64,000 bases of DNA, taken from the NCBI GenBank assembly GCA_012513435.1, contig JAAZCE010000008.1:30046-94045 (forward strand), read 5' to 3'. The translations under genes and the position numbers were made by a program. Every line of letters starts with the position of its first letter. The first letter of the stretch is position 1. A model generated the notes under the pieces. That model was not told where the DNA came from, did no database searches, and saw only the letters and a program-made list of their open reading frames with translations. Positions 46,767-63,598 of the stretch are shown in pieces. Source of the stretch: Clostridiales bacterium (GTDB lineage: Bacteria; Bacillota; Clostridia; Peptostreptococcales; Anaerovoracaceae).

Positions 46767-46814
46767 AAATACTCGTACAAAAACACGCTTTCGCGCCGCA
46801 CGTCAAGTATTCTC

Positions 46815-46985
46815 GTTTCTTTCATCCGGACTATACCGTCGGTACAGGATTCACACCTATTCGGCCATCACAGCACCCGATGGATTGCTTGACATCGGCT
46901 CCTGTTCAGCTCGCGGACTTATAGCTTCTGCCTTATCAGCATCCGCTCATCACCGCCGGTGAGGACTTTCACCTCGCCCTGAAAC
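46815..46985 (-). ncRNA. FMN riboswitch (RFN element)
   Basis: Minus strand AGGGCGAGGTGAAAGTCCTCACCGGCGGTGATGAGCG ... GTCCGCGAGC ... GTGTGAATCCTGTACCGACGGTATAGTCCGGATGAAAGAAA. Confidence 0.96.
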
Positions 46986-47099
46986 AGATTTTCACAAAAC
47001 ATATTATAATCCTAATAATAAGCAATGTCAAGGAATCTTGTTGGTCATAACAGCGTTAAGTTGTTATATGCAATCAATATCTGGGTTCCACTGATTTTA

Positions 47100-52246: not shown

Positions 52247-54076
52247 CTATTCCACCGTTACAGACTTAGCCAGATTCTTAGGCTTATCTATATTGCAGCC
52301 TCTTTCCTTTGCAACATAGTAGGCAAAAATCTGCAGCGGAATCACGGCTACTACAGGAGCCACCTCATCTATACAGTCAGGTATGTATATAACCTCGTCT
52401 GCAACCTTCTCGATTTCAGTCCTGCCATCCTTGGCTACCCCAATAACTCTTGCTCCTCTTGCCTTAATTTCTTCAACATTTGATACCATCTTTTCATATA
52501 AGAAATCCTGTGTTGCCAGTGCGAACACCAGGGATTCTTCTTCCATGAGGGCGATAGTTCCATGCTTTAGCTCTCCTGCTGCAATAGCAAAAGAATTTAT
52601 ATACGATATTTCCTTAAGCTTCAGTGAGCCTTCATATGACACACCACAGTCAATGCCTCTTCCAATGAAAAACACCTGCTCTCTCCTATGGTACTTCTTT
52701 GCAAGGGCAGCGATTTTATCCTCACTTTTCAGCAGCCCATCTACTTTGTCCGGCAGCTCCTTCAGCTGGTCTAAAACCTTGTTGTAGTATTCTGTTTCTA
52801 TAGTACCCTTAGTTCTTCCCATATAAAGGCCAATAAGATACATGCATATTAGCTGAGTTGTATATGCCTTGGTTGATGCTACAGCAATCTCCGGCCCTGC
52901 CCATGTGTAAAATACATCATCGGATTCTCTAGAAACAGAGCTTCCCACTACGTTTACTACAGAAAGAACACGAGCACCCTTTCTCTTCGCTTCTCTTAAG
53001 GCCGCCAAAGTATCCAGAGTCTCCCCGGACTGACTTATAGCTATGAACAAAGTGTTTTCATCCACGAAAGGATCTCTGTACCTGAACTCGGAAGCCACAT
53101 CAACTTCGACAGGTACCTTGGCCATCTTCTCTATTACCAGCTTGCCTACCAGCCCTGCGTGATAAGCCGTTCCGCAGGCCACTATATAAATTTTATTATA
53201 GCCTTCTATGTCCTCTTTTGTCATTGATATCCCATCGAGATTAATGCTTCCATCATCATTGATTCTTCTAACTAGAGTCTCATAAACTGCCTTAGGCTGT
53301 TCGTGGATCTCCTTGAGCATGAAGTGCTCGTAGCCTTCTTTTTCTGCTGCGTCCGCATCCCATGTCACGTGGAAGACATCTCTCTTCACCGTCTTCCCAT
53401 TTTCATCATAAATTGTGATATTGTCTGCGGTAATAACTATGGTTTCATTGTTCTCTATTAGATATACTTCTCTAACGTACTTCAAAAGTGCCGGTATATC
53501 CGATGCTATGAAGTTGAAGCCCTTGCCTATTCCGGCAACGAGAGGGGCGTCTTTTCTCACCGCAACGATTTTGTCAGGCTCTGCTGCCGCTATGGCACAT
53601 ACAGCATATGCTCCGCGCATTTCGGCAACTGCCTTGTTGACTGCTTCCAGAAGATCTCCGTCATAAAATATGCCTATAAGGTGCGCTATTACTTCCGAAT
53701 CCGTTTCTGATTTAAACTTCACTCCGTAATCCTTAGCCAACCATTCCTTGATTTCTTGATAGTTCTCTATTATTCCGTTATGAACTATGGCTATTGAATT
53801 ATCCTCGTTGCCGTGAGGGTGAGAATTAATATCAGAAGGAGCTCCGTGAGTAGCCCATCTCGTGTGTCCGATTCCTATTGGGCTATCAAATTCCGGATCT
53901 AAAATAATCTTTTCAAGATTTTTTATTTCTCCCACGTGTTTCCTTATCGCAATCTTCCCGTCTACGGGAAGGGCAATTCCGGCAGAGTCATATCCTCTGT
54001 ATTCAAGCTTTTTAAGCCCGTCTATTATTTTTTCCTTGGCGTGAGCCTCACCTACATAACCTACTATACCGCACAT
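52247..54076 (-). CDS. glmS: Glutamine--fructose-6-phosphate aminotransferase
   Basis: MCGIVGYVG N-terminus, C-terminal KPKNLAKSVTVE. Confidence 0.98.
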   Translation of the reverse strand: MCGIVGYVGEAHAKEKIIDGLKKLEYRGYDSAGIALPVDGKIAIRKHVGEIKNLEKIILDPEFDSPIGIGHTRWATHGAPSDINSHPHGNEDNSIAIVHNGIIENYQEIKEWLAKDYGVKFKSETDSEVIAHLIGIFYDGDLLEAVNKAVAEMRGAYAVCAIAAAEPDKIVAVRKDAPLVAGIGKGFNFIASDIPALLKYVREVYLIENNETIVITADNITIYDENGKTVKRDVFHVTWDADAAEKEGYEHFMLKEIHEQPKAVYETLVRRINDDGSINLDGISMTKEDIEGYNKIYIVACGTAYHAGLVGKLVIEKMAKVPVEVDVASEFRYRDPFVDENTLFIAISQSGETLDTLAALREAKRKGARVLSVVNVVGSSVSRESDDVFYTWAGPEIAVASTKAYTTQLICMYLIGLYMGRTKGTIETEYYNKVLDQLKELPDKVDGLLKSEDKIAALAKKYHRREQVFFIGRGIDCGVSYEGSLKLKEISYINSFAIAAGELKHGTIALMEEESLVFALATQDFLYEKMVSNVEEIKARGARVIGVAKDGRTEIEKVADEVIYIPDCIDEVAPVVAVIPLQIFAYYVAKERGCNIDKPKNLAKSVTVE

Positions 54077-56392: not shown

Positions 56393-57248
56393 CCTTCTTC
56401 CCCCTTATCTTTGCAAAAAATCTTGAGATTGCTGACATTGTCCCCGTCATTTCCCCCGCATTGAGATACATGTTGAGCAATGTCTTTTCCACCGTCTTAG
56501 TGTCTAGGAATCTGGAAAGCTGACCATCGCTGGCCATTGAAATTATCCCGGTTTCCTCCGATACCAATATGGTCAATGCATCAGAATGTTCCGTTATACC
56601 TATACCAGCTCGGTGTCTTGTTCCAAGCTGCTTGCTAATGCTGTTGTTCTTGCTAAGAGGGAGAACGCATCCTGCTGCATACAATCTGCCGTCCTTAATT
56701 ATGACTGCTCCGTCATGCATAGGTGCGCCTTCGTAAAAGATATTTCCCAGAAGCATTTCGGAAACTTCCGCATCGACTATGGTCCCTGTTTCGACAATAT
56801 CATAAAGGGATGTTTCCCGCTCAAAAATAATAAGCGCGCCCACTCTATCCTGAGAAAAAGATTCGACAGCTTTAACTATCTGATTGGTTATCCTTTTGCC
56901 TTCCTCTTTATCGAGGGCACCAAGGTGTGCGTTAACTATCTTACTTCTGCCCATGAATTCCAGGCCTCTTCTAAGCTCTGGCTGGAACACGATAAGAATG
57001 GCCACCGCTCCCAAGGCAACAGTACCCTTCAGCAACCAGTTGATGGTGTGCAGGCCAAGCACTCCGGAAACAAACGTAGCTATCACAAGGAGGAGCACTC
57101 CCTTCAGCAGCTGCTCCGCTCTTGTTTGCTTAATAAGCCCAAGCAATTTATAAATCACAAAGGCCACTATAAGAATATCTATAATATCCGCAATCGCAAT
57201 TCCGGAAAATGCATTTTCAAAAAATCTCTGCATGTGTATTCTCCACAA
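56379..57248 (-). CDS. cdaA: Diadenylate cyclase
   Basis: DAC domain MHDGAVIIKDGRLYAAGCVLPLS, RHRAGIGITE. Confidence 0.97.
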   Translation of the reverse strand: MWRIHMQRFFENAFSGIAIADIIDILIVAFVIYKLLGLIKQTRAEQLLKGVLLLVIATFVSGVLGLHTINWLLKGTVALGAVAILIVFQPELRRGLEFMGRSKIVNAHLGALDKEEGKRITNQIVKAVESFSQDRVGALIIFERETSLYDIVETGTIVDAEVSEMLLGNIFYEGAPMHDGAVIIKDGRLYAAGCVLPLSKNNSISKQLGTRHRAGIGITEHSDALTILVSEETGIISMASDGQLSRFLDTKTVEKTLLNMYLNAGEMTGTMSAISRFFAKIRGKKDAEQ

Positions 57249-57348
57249 ATTTATTCATACCATTACATTTTACAAAAATTAGGGTTCCTTTTCAATAGCA
57301 AAGATAATAAAACACAATGGTTTCACACATCCTCCATAAAATCGAATT

Positions 57349-57374
57349 GAAGTCCCGCAAAATTGCGGGACTTC
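57349..57374 (-). terminator. Terminator after hpf
   Basis: GAAGTCCCGC-aaaatt-GCGGGACTTC perfect 10-bp stem. Confidence 0.75.
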
Positions 57375-57407
57375 ATAATTATATGTTTCACTATTCCATT
57401 TATTCTA

Positions 57408-57935
57408 TCAATATGTTGTTTCCAGAACTCCGTAATCGTTGTCGTTTCTCTTGTATACCACATTTACCGAATCCGTCTCCATATTAAGGAAAACATAGAA
57501 GTTGTGTGCCAGCAGTTCCATTTGGACTATGGCCTCATCCACCATCATAGGTTCCAGCTCAAACTTCTTCCTCTTCACAATGTGTATATCTTCCTGTTCC
57601 TCCTCAAAGGCCGGAAGGTCTGTAAACACTATTTCCTTATTACCCTTGTACTTTTTCTGAAGCTTAGTCTTGAATCTGGACATCTGAGTCGAAAGTTTTT
57701 CGATTACCCTGTCCACTGCATCGTAAGGATCTTCGGCCTTGACTTCGGCTCTGAAAATCGTTCCCTTTGCATTTATGGTAGCTTCTACTTTGTACCCGCC
57801 TTTCTCTCTTATTGTCATTACGTTACCGATGATTTCGTTTGAAAAATATTTATCTAGCTTTTCAAACTTCTTCTCTATAGTCTCTTTTAACTTATCGCTG
57901 GGACTATAGCTCTTACCAGTGATGTTTACCTTCAT
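57408..57935 (-). CDS. hpf: Ribosome hibernation promoting factor, long form (HPF/RaiA)
   Basis: MKVNITGKSYSPSDKLKETIEKKFEKLDKYF and C-terminal dimerisation region; start after GGAGGTTGTTATT. Confidence 0.95.
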   Translation of the reverse strand: MKVNITGKSYSPSDKLKETIEKKFEKLDKYFSNEIIGNVMTIREKGGYKVEATINAKGTIFRAEVKAEDPYDAVDRVIEKLSTQMSRFKTKLQKKYKGNKEIVFTDLPAFEEEQEDIHIVKRKKFELEPMMVDEAIVQMELLAHNFYVFLNMETDSVNVVYKRNDNDYGVLETTY

Positions 57936-58010
57936 AATAACAACCTCCTTTTGTAGGCTTTTCTTTATTATACCATATCTTGTGTGATAATAAAGTGTTT
58001 TTGTTCTGTA

Positions 58011-58198
58011 TGCAATATGTATATGACTCAGCTGACCTGATCTTTGCCCCCACACTTGCCTTTACCCGACTTTGTCGGAGGACTTACATCTAAACTACGC
58101 CATGCTCACTGCCGCTTTGCGGAACAGCTTACGTGGGACCCTTCGCCCGTAGCTGGCCTGGCCTTTCAATCACAGACCTGAGTCATATACATATTGCA
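58011..58198 (-). ncRNA. Structured RNA candidate, probable raiA-motif ncRNA
   Basis: Perfect 21-bp terminal inverted repeat TGCAATATGTATATGACTCAG / CTGAGTCATATACATATTGCA; internal hairpins CCGAC-AAA-GTCGG and CCGC-AAA-GCGG; lies between comF and hpf/raiA. Confidence 0.72.
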
Positions 58199-58952
58199 CC
58201 GGCTTCTTGTTGCCGCCCGAAGCTAAGGTAAGCAGCAATACTGCTTCTGCGCCCGCCTCAAGCAGCGTTTTGCTGCAGGAATCCGCCGTACTTCCGGTGG
58301 TATATATGTCATCTATAAGTAAAACCTTTTTATTGTAAACTTTCTCAAGTGCGCCAGAGCATACTGCAAAGGCTCCTCTCAAAGCGCTTTCCCTTTCCAC
58401 AGGGCTGAGGCTTCTCAGCAAGGCAGTCTCTCTTGTTCTGACCACAGCATCCCCGAGAAAAGGTTTTTCCATTTTTTTCGCCAGAGATTCGGCCATAAGT
58501 GCCGACTGATTATATCCCCTTTTTCTTTCTCTCCTCCTGTGTATCGGTACGGGAATTATAACATCTGCATCTATGTTTTCACAAGACATTCTGTCATATA
58601 ATATATCTCCGAATTTCTTTCCCAAATAGCTTTTGCCATTGTACTTGTAATCAAGTAAAAGTTCACGCTCTTTCAGACCATAGGTCATGCAGCTGTATCC
58701 CTTATCAAAATAGTGAGGATATGCCATGCAGTCGTAGCACAGCTGCCCCTTGTATGTGTCCTGCAAGGCTTTGCCGCATTTTCGGCACCTTCTGCCATTT
58801 ATCCAGTGAAACTCTCTGATACACTTGTCACAGAGAGAATAGGGCCTCGTCCCGTCTATAAGGCTGCCGCAGCTTATACAATAAATACCCGACGGAAACA
58901 ATGCCTCGTCCACAACCTTTATTGCTCTCTCCCAAATACCGCCTCTATCCAT
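58170..58952 (-). CDS. comF: ComF family phosphoribosyltransferase-like protein
   Basis: Zn-finger CISCG...CDKCI...CRKCGKAL...CYDC; PRPP motif VLLIDDIYTTGST. Confidence 0.93.
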   Translation of the reverse strand: MDRGGIWERAIKVVDEALFPSGIYCISCGSLIDGTRPYSLCDKCIREFHWINGRRCRKCGKALQDTYKGQLCYDCMAYPHYFDKGYSCMTYGLKERELLLDYKYNGKSYLGKKFGDILYDRMSCENIDADVIIPVPIHRRRERKRGYNQSALMAESLAKKMEKPFLGDAVVRTRETALLRSLSPVERESALRGAFAVCSGALEKVYNKKVLLIDDIYTTGSTADSCSKTLLEAGAEAVLLLTLASGGNKKPVQYVYDSGL

Positions 58953-58980
58953 TTCCTTTTCCCCTTTATCTTCGCCTGTG

Positions 58981-61200
58981 CTATAGTTCCCCTATTAAAA
59001 ACTTCCTGAGCCTTACAGCCAATCCGGAAAACCTCTGGCTTACAACATTGTTGTCTACCATCCCATTGAGCTTGTTCTCTGAACCTACCAGGATGACTGC
59101 TTTCCTTCCCCTTGTCACAGCTGTGTAAAGCAGGTTCCTCGTAGCCAGCATAGGCGGAAACCAGCTGACAGGCATGATTATTATAGGGAATTCACTGCCC
59201 TGGCTTTTGTGTACCGTAACAGCGTAAGCAAGCTCCAGTTCGTCAAGCTGAGCAAAGTTATATTTAACGTATTTCACATCATCGTATATAACTGTTATTT
59301 CATTGAATTCTTTGTCTATGCTATCTATGAAGCCCACGTCTCCATTAAAAACCCCTTCTCCCTCTGAAAAATCCTCACGGTTTTTCCATACAAGCTCGTA
59401 GTTGTTCTTTATCTGCATCACCTTGTCGCCTTCTCGGAAAACTCTTTCTCCGAAGGCCTTTTCGGCCAGAAATTCATCGGGCGGATTCAACACCTCCTGC
59501 AGCTTCTTGTTCAGGTTTATGCTTCCCAAAAGGCCCTTTCTCACAGGCGTAAGAACCTGTATATCAACCGTGGGCGATATCTCCTTGTAATAATCCGGTA
59601 ACCTTACGAGACAGAGATTCTTGATGGTTTCAAGCATCTCCTTTTCCGTATTTCTTCTCAGCAGAAAAAAGTCCTTGTCCTTCGTATTACAATCAGGGTA
59701 CTCTCCCTTGTTAATTCTGTGGGCATTGACCACTATCATGCTTTCCTTGGCCTGCCTGAATATCTCCGTCAGCTTGTTGGAATAGATATATTCACTGTCT
59801 ATTATATCCCCCAGCACGTTACCTGCACCTACAGAAGGAAGCTGGTCCGCATCTCCAACTATTATTAGCCTGGTGCCTGATTTTATAGCGCTGACAAGAC
59901 CGTTCATGAGCATAAGGTCTATCATGGAGGCTTCATCTATGACAATGGCATCGTATTCAAGGGGACTATCGGCTGTTTTCCCGAATTTCATAAAGCTTCC
60001 ATCGCCCGAAAAACTGTACTCAAGCAGCCTATGTATGGTGGAGGCATAGTGCCCCGATGTTTCGGTTATCCTTTTGGCCGCCCTTCCCGTAGGCGCGGCT
60101 ATAGCCGTTTTGAATCCGCTGTATTCCAGTATGTTTATAATGGCATTGATAATAGTTGTCTTGCCTGTACCCGGCCCTCCTGTTATTACGGACACTCCCA
60201 TATTAAGTGAGGTTTTAACAGCGTGCTTCTGATTTTCCGACAGATATATCCCTGTATCATTTTCTGTTCTCTTAATAAGGCTGTCCGCATCTGCCGCTAT
60301 TGGCTTCAGCCTGGCTTCGCTGAGAAGGGACAGACATTTGCAGACATTTTGCTCAGCCAAATAGTAGGGCATCAAGAACACTACGGATTGGCCCTCCAGG
60401 CTCTCAACATGTACATCGCCTTCAAAAGCCATGGTTACGACGGCGTCGTCTATGGTATCCATAGGTAGGTCGAGAAGCTGCCCTGTTTTCTCACACAGCA
60501 TATCACGGGGCAGATAGGTATTGCCTTCCCCTGCAAAGTAGGATAATGTAAATTTTATTCCGCTCTTTATCCTAAAGCTGTCGTCAGAGGATATTCCCAT
60601 TTTCTCCGCTATCTTATCGGCCTTTTTAAAGCCTATGCCAAAAACATCCTCTACAAGCCTATAAGGGTTCTCCTCCACAGCAGCTATAGTGTTGCCGCCG
60701 TATACCTGATAGAGCTTCATAGCGTAATTGGCACTTATACCAAATTGCTGAAGAAAAATAGTTACATTAGCAAACTCTCTGTGCTGGGCAAAGCTTTCCG
60801 CTACCCTTTCAGCAGTTTTGGGCCCTATTCCCGGAATGTCCGTAAGCCTTTCCGGCTCTTTTTCTATTATATATAGAGTCTCCTTGCCGAATTTTGAAAC
60901 TATGGCTGCAGCGGTTTTGGACCCTATTCCTTTGAGTATACCTGATGATAAAAATCCTCTGATGCCTTCCTCGCTTGAAGGCATTACATCCTCAAATTCC
61001 TTTATGGCAAACTGTTCACCATAAGTGGGATGAACGGTCATTTCTCCCCTCAATAAAAAACTTCTTCCCACACCGGCTCCGGGCAGAACGCCAACTACCG
61101 TATAGGCTTCTAGTTCAGTTTCAAAAACGGCTACAGTATAGCCGTTTTCGTCATTATGGAATATTATTTCTTCAATGGTTCCTTGTATTTCCTTCTTCAT
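58981..61200 (-). CDS. recD2: RecD-like ATP-dependent DNA helicase (RecD2/YrrC)
   Basis: VITGGPGTGKTTIINAI, VIDEASMIDLMLM, AYAVTVHKSQGSEFPIIIMP. Confidence 0.95.
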   Translation of the reverse strand: MKKEIQGTIEEIIFHNDENGYTVAVFETELEAYTVVGVLPGAGVGRSFLLRGEMTVHPTYGEQFAIKEFEDVMPSSEEGIRGFLSSGILKGIGSKTAAAIVSKFGKETLYIIEKEPERLTDIPGIGPKTAERVAESFAQHREFANVTIFLQQFGISANYAMKLYQVYGGNTIAAVEENPYRLVEDVFGIGFKKADKIAEKMGISSDDSFRIKSGIKFTLSYFAGEGNTYLPRDMLCEKTGQLLDLPMDTIDDAVVTMAFEGDVHVESLEGQSVVFLMPYYLAEQNVCKCLSLLSEARLKPIAADADSLIKRTENDTGIYLSENQKHAVKTSLNMGVSVITGGPGTGKTTIINAIINILEYSGFKTAIAAPTGRAAKRITETSGHYASTIHRLLEYSFSGDGSFMKFGKTADSPLEYDAIVIDEASMIDLMLMNGLVSAIKSGTRLIIVGDADQLPSVGAGNVLGDIIDSEYIYSNKLTEIFRQAKESMIVVNAHRINKGEYPDCNTKDKDFFLLRRNTEKEMLETIKNLCLVRLPDYYKEISPTVDIQVLTPVRKGLLGSINLNKKLQEVLNPPDEFLAEKAFGERVFREGDKVMQIKNNYELVWKNREDFSEGEGVFNGDVGFIDSIDKEFNEITVIYDDVKYVKYNFAQLDELELAYAVTVHKSQGSEFPIIIMPVSWFPPMLATRNLLYTAVTRGRKAVILVGSENKLNGMVDNNVVSQRFSGLAVRLRKFLIGEL

Positions 61201-61208
61201 ACGGTGTC

Positions 61209-62480
61209 CTATCTCAGCCAGGTTACTCCTCTTATGCTTCTGCTCAACTTGCTTTTGCTTAATCTCTTGGCATTGATCAGCAATATTTTTCGAGTGTTGT
61301 TTTCGGGTTTTTTGTGGACTACATCAGGCAGCAACGTCATAAGAAATGCTGCTCTCTGCGGACTGTCCGTAATTCCAGCTTCTATGATGTCTTCAACATC
61401 TATCACCAGGTCCTCTTCAAATATCGGCTCCTTGTTCATTATGATTTCACGGAGCATTGCATCTCTGCCTTCTATTTTTGCCGTATTGTAATCGAAGAGT
61501 ATAGCCTCTGCCTTCAAAAGCCTGTCGAGGTAATTAAAACTCTCCCATCCCCTTCTGTGTATGCATCTTTTCAGCTCTGTGGAATTGTTGATGAAGTAAA
61601 CGCTTCTTATTCCTGTTTTGGATTCAAGGAGAAGCGCCTTATCGTGCTCGCTGTGAGGCAGATATTCAACTGCCTCGTCATAATGCCTTCTGAAGCGGTA
61701 GTAAAAAAGGTTCAGCCTTCTCAGAGGCACATGCTTTATCTGGTCTATTCTCTCGCAAAGTATCCTATACTCATCTGCTTCTCTTCTATTGTTTTGAGAT
61801 GCTTTCTTGCCGATTATGTATTCCACAAGCCCTAACCCAGCAAGCATCTTAAGAGCCTTGCCGGCGTAGTCACCGTTGACGATTTCCAGCATTTCTTCCA
61901 GTATATCGGCCTTCCTTGCTCTAGCCAGCAGTCCTGAGTTTTTGGTTATGGCTTCGGAAAGGCCCTTAGACATGTCAAGGTTATAAAGGGACGCATACTT
62001 TACCGCTTCCAAAATTCTTATCGGTCTCTTTTCAAGGGATTGAACTATATCTCCCGCAGGTTTGAGTATGAGCTTCTTAATGTCCTCTCTTCCGCCGTAT
62101 GGGTCTATGGGAGACTTCTGGGAATGTTCTGCAATGGTCTCAGCTGTAAAGGCGTAATTCTTTAATTCGTCCTCTATAGTGGCTTCGTATGTAATAAGGT
62201 CAGCTATCACTCCCTCATAGGAATCGGCAACATTTACATCATCAGACTTCACTTCTACAGTATAATCCAGTCTTATTACTCGCTTCCCTACCTTTTCTCC
62301 CTCATCAAACAACTCCGTCAGCTTTTCCTGAGGGCAGTCAGTGTATATATCCCAGTCAAGGGGCTCTTCGCCTAAATAGGCTGCCATGACACAATGCCCT
62401 GCACAGTAGGCATCGTAACCTGCTTCAGCAATCTTGTTTACGATTTTGTTTATCTCCTTAGGCCGCTTTACCATCTTCAC
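61209..62480 (-). CDS. Divergent class II nucleotidyltransferase (CCA-adding/polyA polymerase-like)
   Basis: AGHCVMAAYLGEEPLDWDIYTD and DPYGGREDIKKLILK resemble CCA/PAP motifs but several conserved residues differ. Confidence 0.7.
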   Translation of the reverse strand: MKMVKRPKEINKIVNKIAEAGYDAYCAGHCVMAAYLGEEPLDWDIYTDCPQEKLTELFDEGEKVGKRVIRLDYTVEVKSDDVNVADSYEGVIADLITYEATIEDELKNYAFTAETIAEHSQKSPIDPYGGREDIKKLILKPAGDIVQSLEKRPIRILEAVKYASLYNLDMSKGLSEAITKNSGLLARARKADILEEMLEIVNGDYAGKALKMLAGLGLVEYIIGKKASQNNRREADEYRILCERIDQIKHVPLRRLNLFYYRFRRHYDEAVEYLPHSEHDKALLLESKTGIRSVYFINNSTELKRCIHRRGWESFNYLDRLLKAEAILFDYNTAKIEGRDAMLREIIMNKEPIFEEDLVIDVEDIIEAGITDSPQRAAFLMTLLPDVVHKKPENNTRKILLINAKRLSKSKLSRSIRGVTWLR

Positions 62481-63436
62481 ACCATCCTTTTGTAAATCGT
62501 TCTGTTATCCAATGTCCACACCCTATCGCTGAATTCACCCGGCTCTGTCTTTTCCAAAGCCTCCTGCATATCGTACATTTTGGCATCCATCATATCCAGA
62601 TAGTGCAACATTTCCGCCTCTGGAAACAGTGGCTTTTTCGGGCTTCCAAATTCCGGTTCATAGTGATGGGACAGCATCATATGTTCAAGCATAATAGCCT
62701 TTTCTTTGGGTATTCCAAGCTCCCTGGCAAGTTTATCCACAGTCTTCACTCCCTGAACAAGGTGCCCAAGCATTTTCCCCTCAAAGGAATAGCCAGTGGA
62801 TATCCCTAGCTCATTGGCCTCGATTTCATTTATCTTCTCCATGTCGTGGAGTATTACTCCTGCCATGACCAAGTCAAGGCTAAGATTCGTATATATTTCA
62901 CAGGCTTTCTCTCCCATCATAAGCATACGCTTAATATGATACAAAAGACCTGCCATTTCGGCATGGTGATTTTTCTGTGCCGCAGGATAGTACATGAGCT
63001 TTTCTCTGTTATCATCAAGCTGCCTGATACAAATTCTCCTCAGGTCTTCGTCCTCAAGCCCTTTAGCCTTGCCGTAGATGTAATCCAACATATTCTGGGC
63101 GTCCTCGGGCGCCGCCTTGATATAGTCCTTCATATCCAGCTCATCTTCTGCCGACGTCTGTCTTATCTTGCTGACTCTCAGCTGCTTCATACCGTTCCAC
63201 TCGCTGACCAAAGCCCTTATCTTGATAATAGTTCCTTCCTTGATTTTCTCAAGTCCGGGCAGCTCCTCATCGACTATGTCCCATTTTTTACCGGATATTT
63301 CACCCGTGGCGTCTGCCAGCAGCAAATCCAGATAGGCCTTCTTGTTGGAACCCACCTTCACTGCAACTGATTTGACTATAAAATATGACGTAAGCTCCTG
63401 ACCTGTTCTTATGTCAGAAATAAAGATATCTTTCAT
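62477..63436 (-). CDS. OB-fold/HD-domain 3'-5' exoribonuclease (YhaM family)
   Basis: N-terminal OB fold (LLLADATGEISGKKWDI), HD motif VILHDMEKINE. Confidence 0.9.
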   Translation of the reverse strand: MKDIFISDIRTGQELTSYFIVKSVAVKVGSNKKAYLDLLLADATGEISGKKWDIVDEELPGLEKIKEGTIIKIRALVSEWNGMKQLRVSKIRQTSAEDELDMKDYIKAAPEDAQNMLDYIYGKAKGLEDEDLRRICIRQLDDNREKLMYYPAAQKNHHAEMAGLLYHIKRMLMMGEKACEIYTNLSLDLVMAGVILHDMEKINEIEANELGISTGYSFEGKMLGHLVQGVKTVDKLARELGIPKEKAIMLEHMMLSHHYEPEFGSPKKPLFPEAEMLHYLDMMDAKMYDMQEALEKTEPGEFSDRVWTLDNRTIYKRMV

Positions 63437-63598
63437 TTGCCTTCCTCTCCGTATAACATGGTTTTTCCTCTTGAAAGTCTATCACGATTTTGCTGTTTTT
63501 ACAACTCAAAGTATAACATAACCAGAGATTATATGTCAATATTTTCCATAATCCGATTCTTACACCTCGTTACGATGTTTAATTTGTACACAAAAATT

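Follow-up and report, generated by a model that had tools for sequence, protein, structure and literature searches.

A raiA RNA with a family-wide long P1 stem, possibly released from the 3′ end of a comF operon transcript

The RNA located between comF and hpf on the minus strand of the window (the whole stretch of 64,000 nucleotides of Clostridiales bacterium DNA analysed here) is a genuine member of the raiA/ModT class. Its closing stem P1 has over twice the usual length which, judging from the aligned relatives, is a trait of the family Anaerovoracaceae. We see an even chance that this presumably trans-acting RNA forms the 3′ end of a yhaM–cca–recD2–comF transcript and is released at the long P1 stalk, with release and termination as putative steps. 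A cmscan search of the whole window returned three matches at the gathering level, namely the raiA RNA, a tRNA and an FMN riboswitch (RF00050, 95.2 bits, positions 46810–46990 of the minus strand). The raiA match (RF03072) spans the full model, positions 1–209, with a score of 130.3 bits against a gathering score of 101.3, i.e. 29 bits above it, and E = 8.7e-32. The genome holds a single raiA RNA copy. With this full-model match and this single copy, the proposal of the earlier note that the element is a minus-strand raiA-motif RNA stands. The minus strand of the element folds with −75.6 kcal/mol (z = −5.65), and none of 200 shuffled sequences was equally stable. The coordinates of all features are collected in Table 1.

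Table 1. Features of the raiA RNA locus (positions in the window)
Feature	Positions	Strand	Basis
raiA (ModT) RNA core	58023..58186	-	RF03072 model positions 1–209, cmscan
Extended P1, 5′ arm (22 nt; outer 13 beyond the Rfam model; encodes the comF C-terminus)	58178..58199	-	Inverted repeat, covariation, G–U count
Extended P1, 3′ arm (no following U-run in this genome)	58010..58031	-	Inverted repeat, covariation
P3 loop AGCUACG, 5′ half of pk-1 (7 bp)	58148..58154	-	Mapped from the cryo-EM architecture (PMC11751092); pairing complete (100%) across 29 sequences
pk-Loop CGUAGUU, 3′ half of pk-1	58093..58099	-	Pairing in 29 relatives
P5 hairpin containing CCGCAAAGCGG	58108..58128	-	Alignment of relatives
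Short P6 hairpin containing CCGACAAAGTCGG, P7/P8 absent	58059..58081	-	Rfam alignment; PMC11751092
comF, ending inside the RNA	58170..58952	-	Pfam PF00156 and DZR_2; NCBIfam TIGR00201 below cut-off
comF stop codon UGA, made of P1c nucleotides	58170..58172	-	ORF and RNA map
Candidate promoter within the comF gene (TTGTGA-18-TATAAT with TG), some 370 nt ahead of the RNA	58555..58584	-	Consensus scan
Candidate promoter of the yhaM–cca–recD2–comF(–raiA RNA) operon, TTGACA-18-TATACT with TG	63510..63539	-	Consensus 11/12; hits in the region about as many as in shuffles
hpf (long-form raiA/HPF)	57408..57935	-	Pfam PF02482 and PF16321; NCBIfam TIGR00741
Candidate hpf promoter TTTATT-16-TATAAT, TG one base before the −10	57967..57994	-	Score 13.0
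Intrinsic terminator after hpf	57348..57375	-	Terminator scan

The published cryo-EM architecture of raiA RNA (PMC11751092) can be transferred to the window, its numbering being shifted by a fixed 18 positions as far as P5. The window RNA contains P1, P1b (CUG/CAG), P1c (UGAUU/GAUCA), P3a, P3b, P4, P5 and P6 together with the pseudoknots pk-1 and pk-2, and the two hairpins singled out in the earlier note turn out to be the P6 hairpin (CCGACAAAGTCGG, 58066–58078) and the tip of P5 (CCGCAAAGCGG, 58112–58122). Covariation in relatives had been suggested as a check, and two-sided changes are abundant: across 29 relatives from the genus, pairing over the whole structure amounts to 98.1% and 31 pairs carry two-sided changes, compared with 33–42% pairing for slid versions. 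The helices inside P1 are 100% paired, and P1 itself 95.7%, with misses mostly at the outermost pairs. The two pseudoknots are likewise 100% paired in these sequences; pk-1 has one pair with a two-sided and one with a one-sided change, and the 2 bp of pk-2 are invariant and hence uninformative on covariation. The A-minor adenosines that follow P4 (A75 and A76 of the alignment) do not vary, and the GNRA-like turn is almost invariant.

The multi-stem P7/P8 domain is absent from the window RNA and is skipped in the Rfam alignment; the RNA measures 164 nt, compared with 201–218 nt in relatives that belong to the order but not to this family. According to PMC11751092, P7/P8 is an optional domain found in 68% of raiA members, and a ‘variant 1’ with a short P6 stem-loop makes up 32% of the sequences. 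The window RNA is of this short-P6 variant 1 form, and its membership is unaffected since P7/P8 is optional. A few genera of the family have kept a long form of 206–207 nt (loci L106, L107, L117, L141 and L145), mostly with an extended P1, so that the loss of P7/P8 and the extension of P1 are separable. Two loci from other families of the phylum (L196 and L197, in genomes G517 and G468) give raiA-like matches of only 113–119 nt, below the gathering score, and are possibly a minimal raiA form.

The outer part of P1 is lengthened in the window RNA. Its arms, TGCAATATGTATATGACTCAG at 58011–58031 and the exact reverse complement at 58178–58198, are separated by 146 nt and form the longest inverted repeat within 57000–59500; they are the perfect 21-bp closing helix that had been described. 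A terminal G–U pair on the minus strand brings P1 to 22 bp, with a duplex energy of −33.3 kcal/mol. The Rfam model stops after nine outer P1 pairs, the pairing in the window continues for 13 more, and P1 in the family reaches about 10–17 bp past the model. Within the genus, the 24 outer P1 pairs are 95.1% paired and 23 of them show changes on both sides (slid controls, 30–46%); none of 500 shuffles, which ignore relatedness where the slid controls keep it, reaches any of these measures. The length was scored by a strict walk with heavy penalties, as under a laxer version 10–14% of shuffles attained at least eight pairs. The resulting extension score is at least 10 in 28/31 loci of the genus and 49/80 of the family, against 0/16 in the order and 0/20 in the phylum (shuffles, at most 0.05%), and the median P1 is 24, 23, 10.5 and 11.5 pairs, respectively. 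Two loci, L043 and L047, score zero by the walk and were excluded from the covariation alignment; on inspection by eye, pairing in their flanks seems to continue past a small internal loop.

A perfect 21-nt inverted repeat could also be a protein site or part of a mobile element, acting at the level of DNA and unrelated to RNA, a reading to which we give virtually no credence. In the P1 extension, G–U cells outnumber A–C cells by 39:4 in the genus and by 59:16 in a family set with one sequence per genus, an excess that a DNA palindrome would not explain and that points to pairing of the sense-strand RNA. This excess and the Rfam match rule out a repeat at the DNA level only, and the two-sided changes in P1 also speak against it.

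On the minus strand, the genes follow in the order yhaM-like, cca-like, recD2, comF, RNA, hpf, terminator, cdaA, ybbR-like, glmM and glmS (ybbR, glmM and glmS being named by eye from their translations), and the first four are tightly packed. The final codons of comF lie in the 5′ arm of P1. The earlier description of the element as non-coding needs one correction, in that the comF reading frame enters the outer 5′ arm of P1 and stops inside the RNA. Such an overlap recurs in the family: at six of the 61 comF-adjacent loci (L101, L105, L118, L138, L144 and L152), comF terminates 21–57 nt inside the RNA, with stop positions taken from ORFs, as tblastn had read through stops in L019–L021. The same tight run of genes encodes two RNA 3′-end enzymes (61209–63436, minus strand), a YhaM-like 3′–5′ exoribonuclease and a protein resembling CCA nucleotidyltransferases, neither of which reaches its NCBIfam cut-off. 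Further downstream, a GlmS-like ORF identified by eye (52247–54076, minus strand) ends the cdaA–ybbR–glmM–glmS cluster, and no glmS ribozyme was found there at the Rfam gathering threshold.

Promoters were scored with a hand-made σA consensus model, which a weak or distant promoter may escape. The best score within 75 nt of the window RNA is 0.3, i.e. no σA-like promoter nearby in the consensus scan, whereas 14/16 relatives from the order score at least 11, with a −10 element ending 4–13 nt before P1. In clostridial ModT, a σA promoter of its own has been reported just upstream (PMC11706538). Scores of at least 11 are found at 1/20 comF-adjacent loci of the genus compared with 8/11 other loci (Fisher p = 0.00017), and at 10/61 compared with 8/15 in the family sample (p = 0.005). 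The long P1 extension in turn is associated with linkage to comF (54/65 compared with 3/15, p = 6e-6). None of these three p values takes common ancestry into account. In a tree built from the approximately 145-nt RNA core, independent pairs opposing promoter and extension run in the expected direction, 6.2 to 1.3, but the tree-corrected sign tests give no significant relation between promoter and stem length (median p of 0.125 to 0.45).

It could be argued that this is an ordinary raiA RNA gene driven by a promoter of its own that lies concealed within the comF reading frame, with the long P1 merely guarding the ends from exonucleases. The promoters of its close class relatives lend weight to this, as does the TG-extended site inside comF. 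Some promoter-bearing loci of the genus also have a long P1, from which it follows that the extension does not serve processing only. However, the model that fails at 19 of the 20 comF-adjacent loci of the genus is the one that succeeds at most of the others and, in most of the genus, at the downstream hpf; moreover, the promoter-like sites inside comF have no shared position and no pile-up among relatives. We regard a hidden promoter as rather unlikely.

At the 3′ end, a U-run was defined as at least five U in six positions starting 0–3 nt after the last G–C pair of P1. Such a run is present at 14/31 loci of the genus and 32/80 of the family (46/111), compared with at most 6 and 13, respectively, at random downstream places. 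None of the 16 relatives from the order has one; their T-runs peak instead about 26–40 nt further downstream, as would be expected behind a terminator hairpin distinct from P1. The ModT of C. difficile has two isoforms, and terminators lie downstream of its motif (PMC11706538). In the family loci that carry the run, the terminator stem seems to be P1 itself. P1 might then be primarily the terminator of the comF operon, stem plus U-run, coupling 3′-end formation to correct folding; we rate this somewhat below an even chance, and it can coexist with release at the stalk. The run tracks the end of the stem even where P1 is unextended (L109, L115 and L148), but it is missing in about 59% of the family loci, and a ‘loop’ of about 145 nt is far above that of ordinary terminators. 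The window copy has ACAGAACAAAAACAC after P1 in place of a U-run, on which ground P1 as a terminator there was rejected, and no separate terminator was found for this RNA in the window. Outside the family, L179 and L180 combine an unextended 9-bp P1 with a T-run almost directly after it, a hint that a terminator role of P1 also emerged, or has survived, in other groups.

The route that we favour, release from the comF operon transcript, would proceed as follows. The RNA would be transcribed as the 3′ segment of the yhaM–cca–recD2–comF mRNA. Its core would fold first, and P1 would then zip outwards from P1c into a stalk of 22–26 bp that sets the ends of the RNA. Because the stop codon of comF is part of P1c in the window, a ribosome terminating there should hold P1 apart until it is released. 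The ends would be produced by RNase III or a similar double-strand-cleaving enzyme, by intrinsic termination with the whole RNA as the ‘loop’ at loci that have a U-run, or by both. The length of the stalk suits RNase III, which this genome encodes and which would be a candidate for the cleavage. As the U-run is missing, processing would be the likelier route in the window species, with read-through into hpf possible. Extended to the whole family, this would mean that raiA RNA, which is deeply conserved and housekeeping-like, has turned from an independent σA-driven gene into the 3′ portion of the comF operon and no longer has a promoter. The P1 stalk would release it and, in many species, would double as the terminator, coupling correct folding to end formation and the RNA level to expression and translation of the comF operon. 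We put this wider proposal forward only tentatively, thinking it somewhat less probable than its converse. The production anatomy of the RNA is the new part here, and long P1 stems or P1-terminators may already have been mentioned in the literature.

The RNA is likely to be produced independently of hpf, as had been supposed from a TATAAT promoter between the two. The site consists of an extended −10 (TGgTATAAT, hexamer at 57972–57967) and a weak −35 (TTTATT at 57994–57989) with a 16-nt spacer, and a promoter-like site follows the RNA in most of the genus. The position between comF and hpf, together with the precedent of terminator-embedded aptamers (the HMP-PP riboswitch, PMC6478431), might evoke a cis-acting riboswitch or attenuator, with P1 as a switchable terminator for read-through into hpf. 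This seems to us very improbable: studied relatives complement in trans (PMC11706538), and a riboswitch on hpf was rejected on the promoter-like site of hpf and on a context that is not conserved, hpf being on the other strand or not found nearby at several loci of the genus. Judged by the Hpf protein, the named neighbours are Anaerovorax odorimutans SL.3.17 and MAGs from gut and environmental sources, among them Candidatus Allocopromorpha and Candidatus Colimonas, which points to an Anaerovorax-related family.

The raiA/ModT RNAs are among the most abundant clostridial RNAs, with solved structures and knock-out phenotypes, and to our knowledge no molecular function has been assigned to them. 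The studied ModT is abundant, acts in trans and has effects on growth transition, sporulation and c-di-GMP (PMC11706538); by analogy, the window RNA would also work in trans and share this function. If the proposed route is true for the whole family, it provides a natural experiment on what sets the level and the ends of raiA RNA, and a reason for its puzzling linkage to comF. The family also offers a compact natural set combining strong P1 covariation with a short-P6 core.

The window RNA shares with the raiA/ModT RNAs of C. difficile and C. acetobutylicum the full-length model match, helices P1, P3, P4, P5 and P6, both pseudoknots, the invariant core nucleotides, and comF upstream with hpf/raiA downstream. 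It differs from them in its 22-bp outer helix and short P6, in the lack of a detectable proximal σA promoter and of a separate terminator in our scans, and in the overlap with comF. With variant 1 it has in common the short P6 hairpin and the missing P7/P8 domain; the long P1 and the linked comF transcription are not described for that variant in the available part of PMC11751092. In the HMP-PP riboswitch (PMC6478431), a single helix both closes a folded domain and serves as a terminator stem, as we propose for the relatives with a U-run, whereas the window copy has no such run and the studied raiA relatives act in trans. Finally, although cleavage at the raiA P1 is presumptive, the stalk is reminiscent of the processing stalks of bacterial rRNA precursors: in both cases a long helix is formed from the two flanks of a structured RNA within a longer transcript.
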